IMG/VR virus record: IMGVR_UViG_3300042554_000451
Coordinates: 1 to 29,063 of that record
Length of the DNA: 29,063 nt
Direction: 5' to 3' (one strand)
From: a virus
Part shown: positions 3,613 through 23,504 of the stretch, piece after piece
Layout: each line of letters opens with the position of its first letter
Numbering within the stretch: the stretch's first letter is position 1
Position numbers and translations under genes: made by a program
Notes under the pieces: model-generated
The model's input: the letters and a program-made list of their open reading frames with translations, nothing else
The model's database searches: none
What the model was told of the DNA's origin: nothing

Positions 3613-5913
3613 ATGGCATATCGTAAAAACTCCAAGCCGACTAAAGAAGAAATGATGTCTGAGGACGAGCAGAAGATGATGCTCGAAGACGGCACTGAAA
3701 TCTCTATCGAGATGGAAGACGGCATGGAAGTAGAGATCGAGACGCCAGAGGAAGAAACTGGCGTCACCGAAGACGAACTTCACGGCATTGTCGCCGGGGA
3801 GATCGACGACGCGCAAGCCTATATTGATGATGTCATTAGCCCAGAGCGGGCTATGGCCGGCCAATACTACAAGGGCGAACCGTTCGGCAACGAAGAAGAA
3901 GGCCGCAGCCAAGTCATTTCGATGGATGTGCGCGATACCGTGCAGGCCATCATGCCGTCGATCATGCGCGTATTCTTCGGTTCGAGCAACGTCGTTGAGT
4001 TTGCGCCGAACGGCCCGGAAGATATTCAGAACGCCGAGCAGGCGACGGATTACGTCAACTACTGCCTGACCCGCGACAACAACCTGTTCATGGTTTGCTA
4101 CGAAACGTTCAAGGACGCGCTTGTCCGTAAGAACGGTATCTCCAAGGTTTGGTGGAACGAAGACGAAGACGTGCAGACCTACAACTTCGAAGGTCTGAGC
4201 GAAGAAGCCTACACCGTTCTCGCGTCGGACCCGGATGTCGAGATCGTCGAGGTCGAAATGGAAACCGGCGAAATGGCTATGATGGGGCCAGACGGCATCG
4301 AGATCATGGTGCCGAAGCCGACCGAGTATTCCTGCACGATCCGCCGTACCACGAAGAAGGGCCGGCTGTGTGTTGCGGCTGTTCCGCCTGAAGAGTTCCT
4401 TATCGACCGCCGCGCTCGTAACATCGAAGACGCGGAGTTTGTCGCGCATCGCCGTTATGTGACCGTATCCGATCTCGTAAAGATGGGGTACGAGATGGAC
4501 GAGATCGAGAACCTTGGCTACGAAACACAAGACGACTTTGAAGGCAACCAGGAAACCTTCGACCGGAATCCGAACGCAACGATTCTTGGCGCGGGCCGCA
4601 CAGACTTGGCGAGCCGCAAAATCCTTTATATCGAAGGGTACGTCCGCGTAGACATGGACGGCGACGGCATCGCCGAATTGCGCCGTGTTTGCGTTGGCGG
4701 TAGCGCCTATAAAATCCTACATAACGAACGCTGCGACCTGATCCCGTTTGTGTCGTTCTGCCCGGACCCCGAGCCGCACACCTTCTTCGGCCTGTCGATT
4801 GCGGATGTCACGATGGACATCCAGCTTATCAAGTCGAACATCCTGCGCAATATGCTCGACAGCCTCGCGCAGTCTATCCACCCACGCACTGCCGTCGTCG
4901 AGGGCCAAGTTAACCTCGAAGACGTGATGAACACCGAAGTTGGCGGTATCATCCGTATGCGCGCACCGGGCATGGTGCAGCCGTTTAGCCAGCCGTTTGT
5001 CGGCCAGGCCGCGTTCCCAATGCTGGCCTACATGGACGAACTGCGCGAGAACCGCACTGGCATCAGCAAGGCCGCTGCTGGCCTCGACGCCAATGCGCTC
5101 CAGTCCTCGACCCGCGCCGCCGTTGCGGCGACCATCACGGCCGCACAGCAGCACATTGAACTGATCTGCCGCATCTTCGCCGAGACGGGCATGAAAGTGC
5201 TGTTCGAAAAGGCACTGAAACTTATCACTATGTATCAAGATGCACCGCGCATGGTGCGTCTGCGTAATCAGTTCGTGCCGATTGATCCGCGCGTCTGGAA
5301 CTCGAACATGGACGTTGTGGTCAACGTGGCGCTTGGTTCGGGCACGACCGAAGAGAAGATGAACTTCCTCGGTCAGATCGCGGCCAAGCAGGAGATGCTG
5401 ATCCAGCAGGGCGGAGTTGACAACAACCCGTTGGTTGACCTGTCGCAGTACCGCAACACCTTGGCGCAGATGCTGGCAATGGCCGGGTTCAAGGACGCAG
5501 ATATGTTCTTCAAGAACCCCGCGCTCAATCCGCCCCCGCCGCCCCCGCCTCCGCCCCCTCCGTCGCCTGAGCAAATTCTGGCGCAGGTTCAAGTGCAGGC
5601 CATCCAAGCCGACATCCAGAAGAAGGCCGCAGAGCTTGAGCTTCAGCGCGAAGAGATGCTGCGTAAGGACGACCGCGAACGCGATAAGATTGACGCCGAT
5701 GTGATGATTAAGGCTGCGGAGATAGAAGCCAAGTATGGCGCGCAAGTCAACACCGCGCGAATCGAAGCCATGATGCAGCGTGATAGGGACGCCATGCGCC
5801 AGCAGGCTGAGACACAGCGCGCTGTGGCCACAGCCGCTGTTCAAGCCGCCCAGGCCGCTCAGGCTGCGCCCGCCCCCGAACAGACCCCTATGCCGCCTGA
5901 AGGGATGATGTAA
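3613..5913 (+). CDS. Portal protein (P22-like head-tail connector)
   Basis: This 766-residue protein should form the dodecameric ring at the head vertex that passes DNA and docks the terminase and tail. The first 60 residues are unusually acidic. The core begins near residue 105 with DVRDTVQAIMPSIMR, followed by AEQATDYVNYCLTRDN and DALVRKNGISKVWW, which I recognise from P22-type portals. A poly-proline stretch lies at about 640-652. A charged coiled coil rich in Glu, Arg and Gln (about 655-745) follows, and the end is Ala/Pro-rich. Length is close to the P22 portal (725 aa). ATG 3613 was chosen over a GTG at 3595 because AAGGA at 3600-3604 fits it. Its TAA overlaps the next ATG by one base (TAATG). 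Confidence 0.92.
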   Translation: MAYRKNSKPTKEEMMSEDEQKMMLEDGTEISIEMEDGMEVEIETPEEETGVTEDELHGIVAGEIDDAQAYIDDVISPERAMAGQYYKGEPFGNEEEGRSQVISMDVRDTVQAIMPSIMRVFFGSSNVVEFAPNGPEDIQNAEQATDYVNYCLTRDNNLFMVCYETFKDALVRKNGISKVWWNEDEDVQTYNFEGLSEEAYTVLASDPDVEIVEVEMETGEMAMMGPDGIEIMVPKPTEYSCTIRRTTKKGRLCVAAVPPEEFLIDRRARNIEDAEFVAHRRYVTVSDLVKMGYEMDEIENLGYETQDDFEGNQETFDRNPNATILGAGRTDLASRKILYIEGYVRVDMDGDGIAELRRVCVGGSAYKILHNERCDLIPFVSFCPDPEPHTFFGLSIADVTMDIQLIKSNILRNMLDSLAQSIHPRTAVVEGQVNLEDVMNTEVGGIIRMRAPGMVQPFSQPFVGQAAFPMLAYMDELRENRTGISKAAAGLDANALQSSTRAAVAATITAAQQHIELICRIFAETGMKVLFEKALKLITMYQDAPRMVRLRNQFVPIDPRVWNSNMDVVVNVALGSGTTEEKMNFLGQIAAKQEMLIQQGGVDNNPLVDLSQYRNTLAQMLAMAGFKDADMFFKNPALNPPPPPPPPPPPSPEQILAQVQVQAIQADIQKKAAELELQREEMLRKDDRERDKIDADVMIKAAEIEAKYGAQVNTARIEAMMQRDRDAMRQQAETQRAVATAAVQAAQAAQAAPAPEQTPMPPEGMM

Positions 5914-7697
5914 TGTTCGAAGATTACTACGGCGACCCCTACCGCGATTTTAATTTTCTTGACTATCTGCTGATAGGCGGCGGACCGGATTATGTTTCCG
6001 TAACCGACCCGGAAGCCGCGCCTCCCACTGAGCAGCCCATCACCGCCGAACCTGTAGCGGCGGAGCCGGTGTATTCGCCGCCTACACTTCTTCCGACAGT
6101 GGCCGAACCCGTTCCCGCAGAGCCAGTCTACACTCTGCCGACGCCGCAGCCCGTGCAGCCGGAGCCGAGCGTTCCGGAAGTCGATCTTGGTGGCTGGAAC
6201 TTGGGTATGGTCAGCACGGCCCCGCTCAACATCCTGAGCGACCCCGGTCCGGCCTACGATCCGAACATGCTCTTCCGTTTCGACACCGGAAGCAAAATCG
6301 GCGTGCCGGATGGACAGGGCGGCTGGACCTATCAAAATGCAGCGCCCCTCGTCTTTCAGCCGGGCCAGCAATACGTAATGACGGACGAGAGCGGGCAGAA
6401 CGTCATCGCCCGCGCCAGCACTCCGGAGGAGATGCAGAAGCTCGTCCAACTGTCGCAGGACCGGAATAACTGGGCGCTGTATCAGGCCGACGCTTCGGGT
6501 AACTACACGCCGGGCACCCAGCTATTTAGTCGCACCAACGCAGGAAGCCTTGGCAGTATGCTGCTGCCGATGGCCGGTATCGCTGGGCTTGCTCTTGGTC
6601 TCAGCGCGTTGGGCGCAGGTGCGGGTGGTGGGGCTGCGGCTGGCAGCACTGGTGCAGGCGCTGGTGCGGGCGCTGGTGCGGGCGCTGGTGCGGGCGCTGG
6701 TGCGGGCGCTGGTGCGGGCGCAGGCGCTGGGGCGATTACGGGGGGAAGCACTCTCGCAGCCGCAGCCCCCGCCATTACGGCCCCGGCCCTCGCGTCTGAA
6801 GCCCTCATAACCGTGCTTGCTCCGACCTCCGCCGGGCTTGGTCTTGGCGGGACGGCTGCCTTGTTGGGCGGCGCGGGCGCGTTGGGCGGTCTCTCCTCAA
6901 CACTTGGCGGCTTCCAGCCTAGCGGGACTAACTACGGCGATCGGGTCTTTGAGCAACAGCCAGACACGGCTATTCCCGAGACACAAGGCGCTGGGTGGGA
7001 CGTTGTAGCGTCGCAAATCAAACCACCGCCGATACCGCCGCTGACGGAAATCGTCTCAGCTGGTAGCCTTCTTGGTCCTGCTCTCACCACGCCGCCCGAG
7101 ATTTCTCTTCCTCGGACCGAGATGCCGGTAGAGCAACCGTTGCCGGAAGAAATTGTCGTAGAAGGCGCGCCATCACAGCCAATCCCACCCGTCGCAGTTG
7201 TCGGAGGCCTCGGTGCGGCCGCCTCGATACTTTCAGCCGGTGCGACTCCCCCGCAAGCGCCGGTCGAACAACCGTTGCCGGAAGAAATTGTCGTCGAAGG
7301 CACACCACCGCAGCCACCGCCGCTGACTGATATCGCCTCTATCGGTAGCATCCTCGGGCCGGCTCTAGTTACACCGCCCGAGATTTCTCTTCCCCGGACC
7401 GAAATGCCGCAGGATAATTTCCTGCGCGACATCATGCGCTACTATACGCTTGGTAGCGGCATCCTGGATGCGCTTGGCGTTGGCCAAGGCGGCGGTGCGG
7501 GTACGGCAATGCCGTATACTCCGACCTTCGGTGCCGTGCCGACTTTCGGCCGGGGTCAGTTCCAGCCGTTTACTGGCGACTACGAAACTTATGCCACGGG
7601 TCCGGAGTGGAACTTCTTTAACCAGCCCGCCCAGCCGCAGATGCCGGCAAATTCACCATTTCCTTTTCTTCTCCCGCCTAGTACACCAAGCGCATGA
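5913..7697 (+). CDS. Gly/Ala- and Pro-rich repeat protein, probably virion-associated
   Basis: I do not recognise this 594-residue protein. The N-terminus (about 25-95) is rich in Pro/Glu/Val with repeated PAEPVY-type units. A mostly polar segment follows. Residues about 210-275 are hydrophobic and Gly/Ala-rich, with an alternating (GA)n run encoded by a 12-bp tandem repeat. Residues about 375-500 hold a duplicated block (TPPEISLPRTEMP twice, EQPLPEEIVVEG twice). It overlaps the portal stop by 1 bp and the next gene by 4 bp (ATGA). Its place between portal and scaffold suggests a structural or internal head protein; the low-complexity Gly/Ala part could insert in a membrane or serve as a flexible linker. 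All functional statements are inference. Confidence 0.8.
   Translation: MFEDYYGDPYRDFNFLDYLLIGGGPDYVSVTDPEAAPPTEQPITAEPVAAEPVYSPPTLLPTVAEPVPAEPVYTLPTPQPVQPEPSVPEVDLGGWNLGMVSTAPLNILSDPGPAYDPNMLFRFDTGSKIGVPDGQGGWTYQNAAPLVFQPGQQYVMTDESGQNVIARASTPEEMQKLVQLSQDRNNWALYQADASGNYTPGTQLFSRTNAGSLGSMLLPMAGIAGLALGLSALGAGAGGGAAAGSTGAGAGAGAGAGAGAGAGAGAGAGAGAGAITGGSTLAAAAPAITAPALASEALITVLAPTSAGLGLGGTAALLGGAGALGGLSSTLGGFQPSGTNYGDRVFEQQPDTAIPETQGAGWDVVASQIKPPPIPPLTEIVSAGSLLGPALTTPPEISLPRTEMPVEQPLPEEIVVEGAPSQPIPPVAVVGGLGAAASILSAGATPPQAPVEQPLPEEIVVEGTPPQPPPLTDIASIGSILGPALVTPPEISLPRTEMPQDNFLRDIMRYYTLGSGILDALGVGQGGGAGTAMPYTPTFGAVPTFGRGQFQPFTGDYETYATGPEWNFFNQPAQPQMPANSPFPFLLPPSTPSA
6657..6716 (+). repeat. Five perfect 12-bp tandem repeats coding Gly-Ala
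   Basis: The unit GGCGCTGGTGCG occurs five times without mismatch (6657-6716) and is flanked by degenerate copies. Each unit adds four residues of Gly/Ala in frame, so copy-number change would not break the gene. Confidence 0.95.
7041..7409 (+). repeat. In-frame segmental duplications in the repeat protein
   Basis: Block A at 7041-7127 is repeated with divergence at 7323-7409, an 87-bp unit shifted by 282 bp. Block B at 7131-7166 is repeated with only two differences at 7266-7301 (shift 135 bp). Both shifts are multiples of three. The order A-B-x-B-A suggests two separate duplication events inside the gene. Confidence 0.85.
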
Positions 7698-14927: not shown

Positions 14928-15359
14928 ATGTCCTTTGCTCTAGGAGCGCGTTCTAAGGAGCGACTGAAGGGCGTACACCCCGATCTCGTCCGTGTTGTCG
15001 AGCGTGCTATTCAGCTTACCGAAGTTGATTTTACTGTACTCGAAGGGCTGCGCACCGCCACACGCCAGCAGCAACTCATGGCCAACGGCGCGACCAAGAC
15101 CATGAACTCGCGCCACTTGACTGGCCACGCCGTCGATCTGGGTGCCCTGGTGGGAGGGTCTGTTCGCTGGGACTGGGGTTTGTATCTCAAACTAGCAGAA
15201 GCCGTTCGGTCTGCGTCCGTCAGCGAAAACGTCCCCATTCGCTGGGGCGGCACGTGGAAACTGCTGACCGCCATTCAGGGACCGATCACAGCAAAGGTTC
15301 TGAGCCGGTCGTTTCCCGACGGCCCGCATTTTGAGTTGCCCCGCGCAAACTATCCCTAG
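14928..15359 (+). CDS. Endolysin, M15-type peptidoglycan peptidase
   Basis: This 143-residue zinc peptidase should cut peptidoglycan cross-bridge peptides (L-alanyl-D-glutamate type) for lysis. SRHLTGHAVD gives His63 and Asp70, and PDGPHFEL gives Asp131 and His134. These match the T5 endolysin ligands and base (His66, Asp73, Asp130, His133) in spacing. FTVLEGLRTATRQQQL near the start is also typical. No signal peptide is present, so it needs a holin. ATG 14928 has GGAG at 14918-14921. The last 74 bp overlap the 3' end of the antisense HNH gene. Confidence 0.93.
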   Translation: MSFALGARSKERLKGVHPDLVRVVERAIQLTEVDFTVLEGLRTATRQQQLMANGATKTMNSRHLTGHAVDLGALVGGSVRWDWGLYLKLAEAVRSASVSENVPIRWGGTWKLLTAIQGPITAKVLSRSFPDGPHFELPRANYP

Positions 15360-18935: not shown

Positions 18936-19799
18936 ATGTCTAAAGGCGGTCAAACTGCAACGACAACCCAGCAGAATACGCTGGACCCGTTCATTAAGGA
19001 AGCGTTGACGCGCAATATGATGGCGGCCCAGCAGGTCGCTTCTTTGCCGTATCAGCCCTATAGCGGACCGCGCGTTGCAGGTTTCCGCCCAGCCGAGCAG
19101 CAGGCGTTCGAGATGGCGCAGCAGGCCGCAACCGGCCGGGTCGGCGCACCGGAACTGGCGCAAGCTACTCAAGTGGCACAGCAGGCGGCGATGTTCTCGC
19201 CGCAGCAGTTCCAGCAGAACGTTCAGGGTTTCATGAACCCGTACCAGCAGAACGTCATCGATGCCACAATGGCTCGTCTGTCACAGGCCCGCGCGGAGCG
19301 CGACGCTGCTACCAAGGCGCAGCTTGCGGCTTCGCGTGCGTTCGGCAATGAGCGTCGCGGTGTCTACGAAGCCCAGCTTGCAGGCGAACAAGAGCGCAAC
19401 ATGGCCGAGACATTGGCCAACCTGTATAGCCAAGGCTACGGTCAGGCGGCGCAGATGGCGATGGGTCTTCCGGGTCAGCAGCTTGCCGGCGCCGCGGCTC
19501 TCGCCGGCTACGGCAATCAAGCGCTTCAGCAGGAGCAGGCTCGTGCGGCGATGCTCGGAGGCGCCGGTCAGGCTCAACGTGGCATGGCGCAGCAGAACCT
19601 CGACGTGGCCTACCAGGACTTCCTTGCGCAGCGCGGCTATCCGGTCGAGCAGCTTCGCATTCTTCAGTCGGGTCTCAGCGGTCTCCCGGCCGTTACGTCT
19701 TCGACCAGTTCGACGACCACGCCGGGCCAGGGTTTCCTTGGCACTGCCAGCAACGTCGCTGGCGTCCTTGGTGGCCTCAAGAACCTTGGCTTCTTTTAA
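18936..19799 (+). CDS. Putative ejection (internal virion) protein
   Basis: This 287-residue protein is Gln/Ala-rich and mostly helical, with QQ-rich segments from about 30 to 250 (FRPAEQQAFEMAQQAA, ARAERDAATKAQLAASRAFG). The end is Gly/Ser/Thr-rich (TSSTSSTTTPGQGFLGTASN). This composition, and its place after the nozzle and before two larger proteins of the same style, suggest a podovirus DNA-ejection protein delivered into the cell envelope. AAGGAA at 18921-18926 lies just before ATG 18936. I recognise the type, not a named family. Confidence 0.75.
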   Translation: MSKGGQTATTTQQNTLDPFIKEALTRNMMAAQQVASLPYQPYSGPRVAGFRPAEQQAFEMAQQAATGRVGAPELAQATQVAQQAAMFSPQQFQQNVQGFMNPYQQNVIDATMARLSQARAERDAATKAQLAASRAFGNERRGVYEAQLAGEQERNMAETLANLYSQGYGQAAQMAMGLPGQQLAGAAALAGYGNQALQQEQARAAMLGGAGQAQRGMAQQNLDVAYQDFLAQRGYPVEQLRILQSGLSGLPAVTSSTSSTTTPGQGFLGTASNVAGVLGGLKNLGFF

Positions 19800-19812: not shown

Positions 19813-20583
19813 ATGGCTTACGATCCTCGCACTAGAACAGTTACGTTCCCCGGATTTGATTCGACGAATATGCTCCTTTCGCAGCGTACCGCTGCGGCTC
19901 CAGCCGCCGCTACGATGGGACCGGAAAGCACTTACGATAAACTTATCCGTGCGATGTCTGGCGGGAACATTTCTGATACTCTTTCGAGCGGCGATAAACT
20001 GCTGGCACTTAGCGCCCTGTTGGGGTCAGTTACTCGTGGATCGCGCGTTACGCCACAGGAAGTCATGGCCAATATCCGTAAGCAGCAACTCGGCCAGCTT
20101 GAAACGCAGGTGGCTGTTGAGCGCATGAAGGCCAACGAAACTACAAAAAAAGCCTTCCTACAGACGCTCCCAGAAAACGAGCGCAATATGGTTGCCCTTC
20201 TTAGTGACGAACAACTCGGCAAGTACATGATCGAACGTCAGAAGGGCCGCGAGGAGACCGACGCCGAAAAGAAACTCCGCGCTGCTGGTATCGACCCAGC
20301 GTCGCCCGATGGTCAGCGCATTCTCCGTAACGTTGCTTCATCGCAAGGAGTTATTTCGGTGACTGGGCCAGCCGGAACGACATATGTTCAGGCCGCAGAC
20401 GTTGTTCTCGGCGGGGGCGGTCAACGACCAGCCGCACAGACCATTCCGCAGCAGGCAATTGACGATCTTCGAGCCGGACGCGGGACAGTAGAGCAGTTCG
20501 AGAGCATCTTCGGCAAAGGAACAGCTACGCAGTATCTGGGAGGCGGTAGCGGCAACGCTACCGGCGGGTTTCGCGGACGGTAG
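19813..20583 (+). CDS. Putative ejection protein, probably frameshifted at its 3' end
   Basis: This 256-residue protein (MAYDPRTRTVTFPGFDSTN...) is helical in the middle (about 60-170) and Gly-rich at the end (YLGGGSGNATGGFRGR). AGGAA at 19802-19806 precedes ATG 19813. The stop TAG (20581-20583) comes after a CGG codon. Right there another frame, open from 20492, carries an M15-like peptidase domain without any start codon. A +1 shift within 20492-20580 would give a single protein of about 345 residues, with an ejection-type N-terminus and a peptidase C-terminus. So this gene may be truncated by an indel or may use programmed frameshifting. Confidence 0.78.
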   Translation: MAYDPRTRTVTFPGFDSTNMLLSQRTAAAPAAATMGPESTYDKLIRAMSGGNISDTLSSGDKLLALSALLGSVTRGSRVTPQEVMANIRKQQLGQLETQVAVERMKANETTKKAFLQTLPENERNMVALLSDEQLGKYMIERQKGREETDAEKKLRAAGIDPASPDGQRILRNVASSQGVISVTGPAGTTYVQAADVVLGGGGQRPAAQTIPQQAIDDLRAGRGTVEQFESIFGKGTATQYLGGGSGNATGGFRGR

Positions 20584-20851
20584 ATCGGTAATCCGAAATC
20601 TCTTCCCCAATGCCCGCATCACGTCGGCTTATCGCGGTCCTAGTCATCCGCTTTCCAAGGCCAATCCTCGGTCATACCATGCCACCAGCCGTGGTGCGGT
20701 TGATGTCGCTCCTATACCCGGCATGACATTTAACCAGTATGTCCAGTCTATCCGCAACGCCGGATATAGAGTAATTGAAGCAAGAGACGAAGTGACGAAC
20801 CCTTCGCGGTACGCTACTGGCCCTCACTGGCACGTTGTGATTGGAATATAA
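20492..20851 (+). CDS. M15-like peptidase domain without start codon (frameshift product)
   Basis: The frame is open from just after a TAG at 20489-20491 to TAA 20849-20851 and has no ATG, GTG or TTG in its first part; the first ATG lies deep inside the domain. From 20588 it reads VIRNLFPNARITSAYRG, then SYHATSRGAVDVAPIPGM, then YATGPHWHVVIGI. His (codon 20678) and Asp (20702) plus the HWH pair (20825, 20831) fit the metal ligands of M15/VanY-like peptidoglycan peptidases, and I recall near-identical wording in other phage proteins. It lies +1 relative to the preceding gene and stops 1 base before the next ATG. This points to expression as the C-terminus of the upstream ejection protein, to degrade the wall locally during DNA entry. 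Confidence 0.75.
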   Translation, partial: SSSRASSAKEQLRSIWEAVAATLPAGFADGRSVIRNLFPNARITSAYRGPSHPLSKANPRSYHATSRGAVDVAPIPGMTFNQYVQSIRNAGYRVIEARDEVTNPSRYATGPHWHVVIGI

Positions 20852-20852
20852 T

Positions 20853-23504
20853 ATGGCCGAGAATCCTTTTGCTAAGTATGCCCCTACGGCTTCGACCGGC
20901 GGTAGTGCGTTTGTAGAAGCTCCTGGCGCGGCCGAAGAGCGGGCGCGTAGGGCAGCAGAGGAGCAGCGTGCGCGAGAGGCTGCGGCCCGCGAAGCCCGTC
21001 GTGAAGGGCGCGATATTGGAGCATCCGCCCGCAGTCTTATTGGAGACTACCGCAAGGAGTTTCTCGGCAATCAGGAGGTAAAGGACTTCCGTAACGTCGC
21101 TAACGCCACTCGCCAAATCATCACACTTGCGCAGAGCGAAGGCACGGCGATGGGCGATATCGGCCTAATCTTCTCCTACATGAAGGCGCTTGATCCGGGT
21201 TCGGTGGTTCGTGAAGGCGAACAGGCTACTGCCCAAAACGCCGCGGGCGTTCCTGAACAAATTCGTAATGCCTACAACCGTCTTGCCAGCGGTCAGCGTC
21301 TTTCGCCCGAACAGCGCACCGACATGGCGAATACTGCACTCAATATCTACGGCGCTCGTTCGCAGGCATACAACACCTTCGCCAACACCTATCGCGGCCT
21401 TATTGCTGACGCGGGTGGCGATCCGGACAAACAGGGCGTCACTCTGGCACCGTCGCTGGCCCCGGCCCGCGCCGTAGTTACTGAAGCAGGTGCCGCTCCG
21501 GGTCGTATCGCCCCGGCCACGGCAGGCGCGGCACAGTTGACGGAACAAGACCGAGCTATACAAAGCGAAATGCAGGCCGCGTATAACGCAGCTATCAGCG
21601 CCGGAAAAACTCCGGATCAAATCCTTCAGGAATTGGTTGGCATCGGTCAGCGCTACAATCGCCAAATCGACCCTGCGTACCTCGACACCGTCCGCAAAGC
21701 CGCCACGGAACGGGGTCCGGTGCAGTTTATCGCGGAACCGACTGGAGAAACTTCGACTGCGCAGGGCTTGCTTGGCTCTGTTCTGAAAACCACTCCGGGC
21801 CAGATGGCTGCTGGTTTGTTCGGCGGAGCGGCAAATGCGCTCACTGCCGGATTTGCAATGGATGAGGCCACGAAGGAGTATCTTCGTGAAACGGCTCCGG
21901 GTTCGTCGTTGGTTGGTGAATTGACTGGCGGCGCACTAGCTACTATTCCGGCTATTCGTGGTGCGCAAGGCATCTTGGCCGGGACACGCTTGGCCGGGGC
22001 CGCGCCGCTCATCGGCGAGGCGGCTTACGGTGCGTTGTATGGTGCTGGCGAAGCCGGTCCCGATAATCGCTTGCAGGGCGCATTGACCGGCGGAATTGCC
22101 GGGCTTGCCGGTGGCGCGTTGGCTAATCGTTTTATGCCGGGTGGACCAGGTACGTTTACTGGCGCTCCGCGTTCGGCCGTTCCTACTCCGGGCCGTTTTG
22201 CTGGCCAACAGATTTCTCCGGAGCAAATTATCGCAGCCGGGCAACAAGCCAATATTCCGGTCATGACCAGCGACGTTATGCCGCCGCAAACTCGCGCTGC
22301 GCAGCTTATGCAGTCGGCTGGGGAAGTCATGCCGCTCGGCACGGCTGGTATGCGCCGTGAACAACAGGTCGCACGTCAGACCGCCGTGGAAGACCTTCTC
22401 GCAGAATACGGCGTTTCGGCGGACCGCGACATTGCCTCAGAAGTTGTGAGTAATCTTACTCAGAGTCGTTCCGATACAATCAATCGCTACAGCGGTATGA
22501 AGAAGAACATTATCCAGCAGTTTGCTGGACGCGGCGATGTTCCGGCTACGAAGTCGATCTCGGCCATCGATGGCCTGCTGAACGATTTGCGTGCGGAAAA
22601 CCTTCCGCAGCAGCTTGGTCCGCTGATCCGTCAGCTTGAGGATGTCCGCAACAGCCTTACCGGCCCAGGCGATCTCGCCAAAATCGAAGCTAATCGTAAA
22701 ACGCTTTTTAACCTTAAAGGCGACCCTAACCTTGCGTCGATCTCGGATAAGTCTGAGAAGGCATTCCAGCAGGTTTATTCCGCCCTCAACGACGACATGG
22801 GCGACTACATCAAGGCCAACGGCACGGCTAAGGACTTTAATCTGTGGAAGGCGGCTAACACTAAGTTGGCCCGCACTGCGGATGAACTTCGTGTCGGTAG
22901 CCTCAAGAACGTGCTAAATAAGGGTGAATTCGATCCGACGCTAGTGACGAAGATGCTAACCAGCAGCAAGCCGACCGAAGTTCGCACGCTGTTCACTAAC
23001 TTGAACAAGGATGGCCGCGAGAGCGCCCGCCTGCTTCTTATTCAAAACGCCGCAAAGCGCGCCATGAATACGGAAACTGGTGACATCGATCCGAGCCGTT
23101 TTGCTCGTGAAGTCATGGGTCTGTCCGACAACTTCTCGCAGTTCTTCGGTGCTTCCGATATGCGCCGCGTCAAGGGTCTGGCGGAAGTCCTGCGCGCTAC
23201 TAGCCGCGCACAGTCGGCGCAGTTCCTGCCGCGCACTGGCGAACAGCTTATGCCTGTCGCGACGATGGGCGGTTTTGGCGGACTTGGAACACTTCTTGGT
23301 ATGTCGTTTGGTCAGGGCGTTGCAATGTCTGCCGGCTTCGGCGCAATGAAGCGATTCTACGAAAGCAAGCTCGCGCGCGATCTTCTGCTTCGTATCAGCC
23401 AGGCTTCGGGTAGTAAGAAGGCCGAGCTTATCCAGCAGTTCACCGCCGGAGTTGCCTCTGCCGGTGCCGCTATCGGTGCAACCCGTATGAGTGAAGGACA
23501 GTAA
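20853..23504 (+). CDS. Large putative ejection protein
   Basis: This 883-residue protein starts MAENPFAKYAPT; ATG 20853 is preceded by GGAA at 20843-20846. Residues about 25-60 are a charged Ala/Arg/Glu helix. Residues about 60-290 are helical and polar. Residues about 305-430 are Gly/Ala-rich and hydrophobic (GGALATIPAIRGAQGILAGT, TGGIAGLAGGALANRFMPGG), a possible membrane-inserting part. The rest is helical again, with a second Gly/Phe-rich patch (about 800-830). This resembles large podovirus ejection proteins that build a channel across the envelope. No lytic transglycosylase motif is seen in it, which fits the wall-cutting activity being carried by the neighbouring M15-like domain. Stop overlaps the next ATG by one base. 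Confidence 0.8.
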   Translation: MAENPFAKYAPTASTGGSAFVEAPGAAEERARRAAEEQRAREAAAREARREGRDIGASARSLIGDYRKEFLGNQEVKDFRNVANATRQIITLAQSEGTAMGDIGLIFSYMKALDPGSVVREGEQATAQNAAGVPEQIRNAYNRLASGQRLSPEQRTDMANTALNIYGARSQAYNTFANTYRGLIADAGGDPDKQGVTLAPSLAPARAVVTEAGAAPGRIAPATAGAAQLTEQDRAIQSEMQAAYNAAISAGKTPDQILQELVGIGQRYNRQIDPAYLDTVRKAATERGPVQFIAEPTGETSTAQGLLGSVLKTTPGQMAAGLFGGAANALTAGFAMDEATKEYLRETAPGSSLVGELTGGALATIPAIRGAQGILAGTRLAGAAPLIGEAAYGALYGAGEAGPDNRLQGALTGGIAGLAGGALANRFMPGGPGTFTGAPRSAVPTPGRFAGQQISPEQIIAAGQQANIPVMTSDVMPPQTRAAQLMQSAGEVMPLGTAGMRREQQVARQTAVEDLLAEYGVSADRDIASEVVSNLTQSRSDTINRYSGMKKNIIQQFAGRGDVPATKSISAIDGLLNDLRAENLPQQLGPLIRQLEDVRNSLTGPGDLAKIEANRKTLFNLKGDPNLASISDKSEKAFQQVYSALNDDMGDYIKANGTAKDFNLWKAANTKLARTADELRVGSLKNVLNKGEFDPTLVTKMLTSSKPTEVRTLFTNLNKDGRESARLLLIQNAAKRAMNTETGDIDPSRFAREVMGLSDNFSQFFGASDMRRVKGLAEVLRATSRAQSAQFLPRTGEQLMPVATMGGFGGLGTLLGMSFGQGVAMSAGFGAMKRFYESKLARDLLLRISQASGSKKAELIQQFTAGVASAGAAIGATRMSEGQ

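Follow-up and report, generated by a model that had tools for sequence, protein, structure and literature searches.

This locus raises the question of how a predicted peptidoglycan peptidase domain that lacks a start codon ahead of it could be translated from a frame hidden at the end of another phage gene. The window, by which we mean the whole stretch of 29,063 nucleotides of virus DNA that was analyzed, contains one copy of this M15-like domain. It lies in a stop-to-stop frame of 119 codons (20492-20851), +1 relative to the gene at 19813-20583 and overlapping it by 92 nt. As a first-pass annotation of the DNA had described, the frame terminates 1 nt short of the next ATG, at 20853, and offers no start codon before the domain, since the earliest ATG, GTG or TTG is located 153 nt inside the domain. 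The genes concerned are the following:

18936-19799, plus strand: upstream neighbor, a gp7-like DNA ejection protein (PHROG 4287, E 1.5e-11)
19813-20583, plus strand: 0-frame ejection-type gene in the position of P22 gp20, an open reading frame of 256 aa if terminated at the TAG at 20581
20570-20851, plus strand: +1-frame M15-like hydrolase domain, 93 aa counted from the shared Phe (AlphaFold2 pLDDT 91)
20853-23504, plus strand: downstream neighbor, a gp16-like DNA transfer protein (PHROG 770, E 1.1e-53)
14928-15359, plus strand: separate M15 endolysin, the exit enzyme (Peptidase_M15_4, E 1.2e-6; PHROG 465 endolysin, E 1.8e-59)

The label of ejection protein, originally given to the gene at 19813-20583, is borne out by gene position and not by the gene's own sequence: it lies, like gp20, between the gp7-like and gp16-like genes, and neither PHROG and NCBIfam nor tblastn searches against cultured phages returned a match, including any to the gp20 family. 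We call its product an ejection-type protein on the basis of its flanking genes.

The assignment of the hidden domain to the M15 type rests on its zinc-ligand pattern, H-x(6,7)-D followed by H-x-H, of which H37, D45, H86 and H88 (here H-x7-D and HWH) are invariant in 35 homologues. The domain is not matched by the Pfam M15 profiles, and the best TM-score among the Foldseek matches listed was to a zinc DD-peptidase (1lbu, TMq 0.54) at a non-significant E-value of 0.75. A comparison with hhalign relates it to M15_3-type domains encoded in the +1 frame at other loci (95%, E 3.7e-8, over 50 columns). The endolysin at 14928-15359 is the second M15-type enzyme of the phage, in agreement with the earlier proposal that it carries two.

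To compare the locus with related phage proteins, we searched IMG/VR, where the protein search yielded 38 contigs and a profile search 80. Homologues, 85-44% identical, occur in dozens of contigs. Every close relative found has the domain placed +1 relative to the upstream ORF, with the break at one common position; distant members are mixed, some having the +1 break (the cyanophage Pam1, ON014753, which is cultured on Pseudanabaena, and L037/L038, L073 and L085) and others a plain in-frame fusion (Sphingopyxis phage VSN-002, L039, L040, L074 and others). These full-length fusions are what one would expect if the break were a sequencing or assembly indel or the mark of a decayed gene. However, all close relatives found share the break, which rules out an indel in this record; the +1 relation is present in more than 100 independent metagenome contigs as well as in Pam1; both frames are conserved as protein with their frame relation constant across relatives; and the plain fusions lack, according to a covariance model, the RNA element described below. 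We regard an indel or a decayed gene as having a negligible chance of explaining the locus, and +1 frameshifting, which the first-pass annotation had preferred over an indel, as the reading favored by the relatives.

An alignment of the relatives at the junction shows an element of fixed order, in which GGAGG is followed by a short inverted repeat and, after a spacer of 5 nt, by TTT and C. In the window it comprises the following features, with the 0-frame stop shortly after them:

20539-20543, plus strand: GGAGG, Shine-Dalgarno-like and abutting the stem, conserved at this position in 127 element loci, with one GGGGG variant
20544-20563, plus strand: 8-bp stem-loop CGGTAGCG-GCAA-CGCTACCG with a GNRA loop, supported by RNA folding and covariation, separated from TTT by exactly 5 nt at its 3' end
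20569-20574, plus strand: proposed +1 slip site TTT_CGC, with P-site tRNA-Phe moving from UUU (20569-20571) to UUC (20570-20572)
20581-20583, plus strand: 0-frame stop TAG, four codons past TTT, its position not conserved

The slip had previously been placed at CGG TAG, where the upstream gene stops. This site is particular to the clade of the window, and many relatives differ there, whereas TTT_C is constant with or without CGG TAG nearby; the better candidate therefore lies four codons upstream. TTT_C is found in 120 of the 121 loci with a +1 domain, and the remaining one, Pam1, has TTT_T. The 0-frame ends 2-15 codons after TTT_C, in 40 loci with a stop just one codon past TTT, and in L307 a stop in the +1 frame is located four codons before TTT. 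Between them, these stops limit where the shift can occur to some 12 nt on the 5' side of TTT and 6 nt on its 3' side, an interval in which the sole evident re-pairing would be that of UUU to UUC (in Pam1, of UUU to UUU).

Three other readings of the site were set aside. UUU_CGN is too narrow as the complete motif: it is present in the window and its close relatives, but elsewhere the sites are UUU_CAA, CCN, CTN, CAG or UCG, and the 0-frame codon following TTT can be CGC, CAA, CCN, CGN, CTC, CAG, CAC or UCG. A stop codon as stimulator disagrees with the variable position of the 0-frame stop, at 2-15 codons from the site, and a rare A-site codon with CGC being the commonest arginine codon of this phage.

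The RNA of the window folds at −15.4 kcal/mol (z −4.8). Across loci, the stem takes one of two registers. It has 8 bp closed by a tetraloop in the clade of the window, and 7 bp (plus a U.G pair) with a 5-nt loop in most others; the gap between the 3' arm and TTT is 5 nt in either case. In 59 distinct 34-mers, 98.8% of the cells in the stem were paired, compared to 34-40% in slid versions; cells with a double change numbered 63, against 22.6 ± 2.9 in shuffles, and the covariation score was 0.398 versus 0.105. In a set of 29 sequences collected by protein homology only, with registers mixed, pairing was 76.4% (vs. 62.1 ± 1.6) and double-change cells numbered 27 (vs. 8.2 ± 2.0). Individual pair columns exchange A-U with C-G, pass through A-U, G-C, U-A and C-G, or vary between G-C, C-G and U-G. 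The peptides encoded by the element differ between loci (GGQTATPSGNF, GGPTPPASGNF, GGGSGNATGGF, GGQASAPDPF and others), and since the amino acids vary, it is the RNA that is conserved and not the peptide. The conservation of GGAGG and of a covarying stem-loop at fixed spacing marks them as a putative stimulatory signal. Rfam had no match in the window, and an arrangement of GGAGG, hairpin and UUU_C was not reported in the open-access literature we searched.

To collect further loci we used a pattern that considers DNA only and is blind to protein. A narrow version located the element in other contigs, and a second, broader version placed no constraint on two of the stem pairs. The broader pattern matched at least 120 viral stretches, compared to 5 for a reversed-pattern control. 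Among the matches listed, 109 show the expected gene architecture (101 in +1, 4 in +1 but cut by the contig end, and 4 in frame), and one further true element is cut on its 5' side. Both free stem pairs were complementary in all 109 of these architecture-bearing matches, as against 0, 0 and 1 pairs in three chance matches. Hits of the short pattern in L099, L116, L118, L120, L152 and L154 fall on the beginning of a tail protein gene (MAGLDAFGT...) together with its ribosome-binding site, and were treated as false positives. Overall, the collection amounts to at least 127 distinct element loci; the hydrolase is in the +1 frame in 121 of them and in frame in 6. Single-linkage clustering places the upstream genes into one family (126 of 127), behind which stand four groups of hydrolases; given this single family and the ascertainment bias common to the pattern-found loci, the loci are not fully independent. 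Their neighbors include DNA-ejection and virion proteins of PHROG 598, 4287 and 6121.

Searches for cultured relatives of the window, by DNA and by the ejection protein, found none, and BLAST with the short element gave chance partial matches only. Of the cultured or complete podophage-type genomes we fetched, Pam1 alone has the element, which is absent from VSN-002, SR18, Ochrobactrum OH, BPP-1, BcepC6B and two spring-water genomes. It was also found in none of 385 bacterial genomes of one class (covariance model) and none of 398 genomes of the phylum (pattern), but this is a weak negative, as neither set included a known-positive genome.

The +1 domains behind the element match Peptidase_M15_3 or SLT in Pfam at other loci, and a fourth group matches the PHROG annotations 'endolysin' and 'tail injection transglycosylase'. 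With M15 types, two SLT-like groups and this endolysin-like group, the +1 frames appear, by similarity, to carry interchangeable predicted peptidoglycan hydrolases. The longest +1 extension, of 191 aa, was seen in L288 (2824-3396), where an extra segment of about 90 aa precedes the M15_3 domain.

Alternatively, a +1 domain could be a cistron of its own that starts internally, in which case GGAGG would serve as the ribosome-binding site and the hairpin would modulate translation. GGAGG is indeed a perfect Shine-Dalgarno core, and a GTG or TTG is present at some point in many +1 ORFs. Yet an ATG, GTG or TTG in the +1 frame, 3-13 nt past GGAGG, is found in only 10 of the 121 loci, nine of which are near-identical members of one clade, in which the window itself has GCG. 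As most +1 ORFs hold some GTG or TTG upstream, sequence alone excludes internal starts just in the 12 of the 121 loci, the window included, that have no canonical start up to 15 codons beyond the slip. An internal start would, moreover, leave unexplained both the constant TTT_C and the retention of the element by six in-frame fusions in which the +1 frame soon stops, and we consider it improbable.

In these six fusions (L072, L077, L078, L136, L248 and L251) the element is kept and the hydrolase is in frame 0, while the +1 frame reaches a stop after 10, 2, 3, 4, 4 and 1 codons, respectively. For reference, TTTC sites within long ORFs, taken from the six and from other element loci, have a median distance to a +1 stop of 23 codons; the probability of a sum of 24 or less for the six loci, a small sample, is about 1.4e-4. 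An in-frame hydrolase with a prompt +1 stop predicts the same two products as the layout with the hydrolase in +1. The six loci thus fit a device that sets the proportion of two products irrespective of the frame bearing the enzyme.

They also bear on the possibility that the stem-loop is a transcription signal, such as a terminator or slippage site, or a recombination site for hydrolase exchange, with the frame relation secondary. Hydrolase modules are swapped exactly downstream of the element, as an exchange site would have it, but such a site would keep neither the frame relation nor the prompt +1 stops of the in-frame versions; no terminator-like site was detected, and a run of three T is no homopolymer for slippage. 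We judge this explanation very unlikely, even more so than an internal start.

We conclude that the 3' end of the ejection-protein gene very probably carries a programmed +1 ribosomal frameshift cassette, as judged from comparative sequence analysis. In the mechanism we propose, with UUU in the P site, GGAGG would pair with the anti-Shine-Dalgarno and the hairpin would re-form right behind the E site, favoring forward movement; tRNA-Phe (GAA), wobble-paired on UUU, would then advance by one base and re-pair with UUC, which is fully cognate to it. Decoding in +1 would yield the ejection protein with the hydrolase, a predicted fusion of 345 aa (252 + 93), while the remaining ribosomes would stop within a few codons, so that the virion would contain a mix of ejection proteins with and without a wall-cutting entry enzyme. 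That the enzyme on a fraction of the copies serves entry is inferred by analogy from ejection-protein biology (PMC8954989).

Shine-Dalgarno and hairpin would act jointly in this mechanism. GGAGG lies 25 nt from the slip site in line, and looping out the hairpin would put it about 6 nt from the P-site codon; as the distance known for a +1-stimulating Shine-Dalgarno is 3 nt (PMC5009743), the role of GGAGG is conjectural. Some folds pair GGAGG with CUUUC and suggest an alternative role, in which it may extend the hairpin over the slip site. This alternative is weakened by the clade of the window, where G, T or A replaces the C of CUUUC.

Several known systems resemble the proposed frameshift in part. 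In prfB, encoding RF2, the codon that receives the P-site tRNA after the +1 shift likewise overlaps the first one, and an internal Shine-Dalgarno located 3 nt upstream drives the shift (PMC5009743). However, the prfB site is CUU_UGA, with a stop in the A site and a role in autoregulation, whereas here the site is UUU_C, a hairpin stands between GGAGG and the slip site, the stop is neither needed nor conserved, and the gene is a structural phage gene. The proposed re-pairing of tRNA-Phe from UUU to UUC is the same as in influenza A PA-X, where the +1 shift at UUU_CGU was shown by mass spectrometry (PMC3498833), and UUU is among the most slippery +1 codons in the prfB context (PMC10885494). PA-X and other UUU_CGN sites differ in being read by eukaryotic ribosomes, without evident stimulators and with low reported efficiency (PMC5009743), unlike the bacterial element with its conserved 5' stimulator-like part and its UUU_C followed by many codons (CGC, CAA, CCN, CTN).

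A hairpin 5' of the take-off codon is further known from T4 gene 60, where this stem-loop 'motor' is proposed to pull the mRNA and drive forward movement (PMC5009743), but there it accompanies a 50-nt bypass and a nascent-peptide signal, compared to the gapless single-base shift proposed here. Structural genes with two forms made by +1 shifts are known from Listeria phages PSA, A118 and A500 (PMC5009743); these have CCC_U sites with a pseudoknot or stop on the 3' side, the genes encode capsid and tail proteins that are extended differently at the C-terminus, and a 5' element of Shine-Dalgarno and hairpin is not described for them. Finally, hydrolase modules are known to move between ejection proteins, such as T7 gp16 (PMC8954989), where they are fused in frame and present on every copy, in contrast to the fraction predicted here. 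We found no paper in the open-access literature joining frameshifting with the hydrolases of ejection proteins.

It seems likely, though less so than the frameshift itself, that the element represents a new and widespread class of bacterial +1 signal, formed by a stem-loop abutting GGAGG, 5 nt and UUU_C, in which the looped-out hairpin and the Shine-Dalgarno push the ribosome forward, and which phages use as a transferable dosage device setting the fraction of entry hydrolase, with the enzyme in the +1 or the 0 frame alike. If true, this would be a large family of +1 sites with a 5' stimulator of Shine-Dalgarno plus hairpin, through which the forward push of a 5' mRNA hairpin on the bacterial ribosome could be studied directly. 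The exchange of the hydrolase module while the signal is kept suggests that the ratio itself is selected. The loci with swapped frames are a natural argument that selection acts on how much of the ejection protein bears the enzyme relative to the plain form, and turn the number of entry-enzyme copies needed per virion into a testable question.

The findings also suggest that many phage ejection genes are mis-annotated, with the entry hydrolase either missed or called as a separate hypothetical gene, as in Pam1 (L002, ON014753). There (5937-5970 and 6130-6279), the 'hypothetical protein' Pam1_15 is annotated from an internal ATG lying inside the +1 hydrolase domain; its true product is probably a frameshift fusion with Pam1_14. 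In L253, the gp16-like downstream protein (4770-7616) matches a PHROG transglycosylase family, and some such phages may have two entry hydrolases. The M15-like domain of the window also occurs, far from any recoding element, within very large in-frame proteins of about 1000 aa and more in L089 (6001-12264) and L041 (5001-7985), the former of which has methyltransferase/helicase-like sequence.
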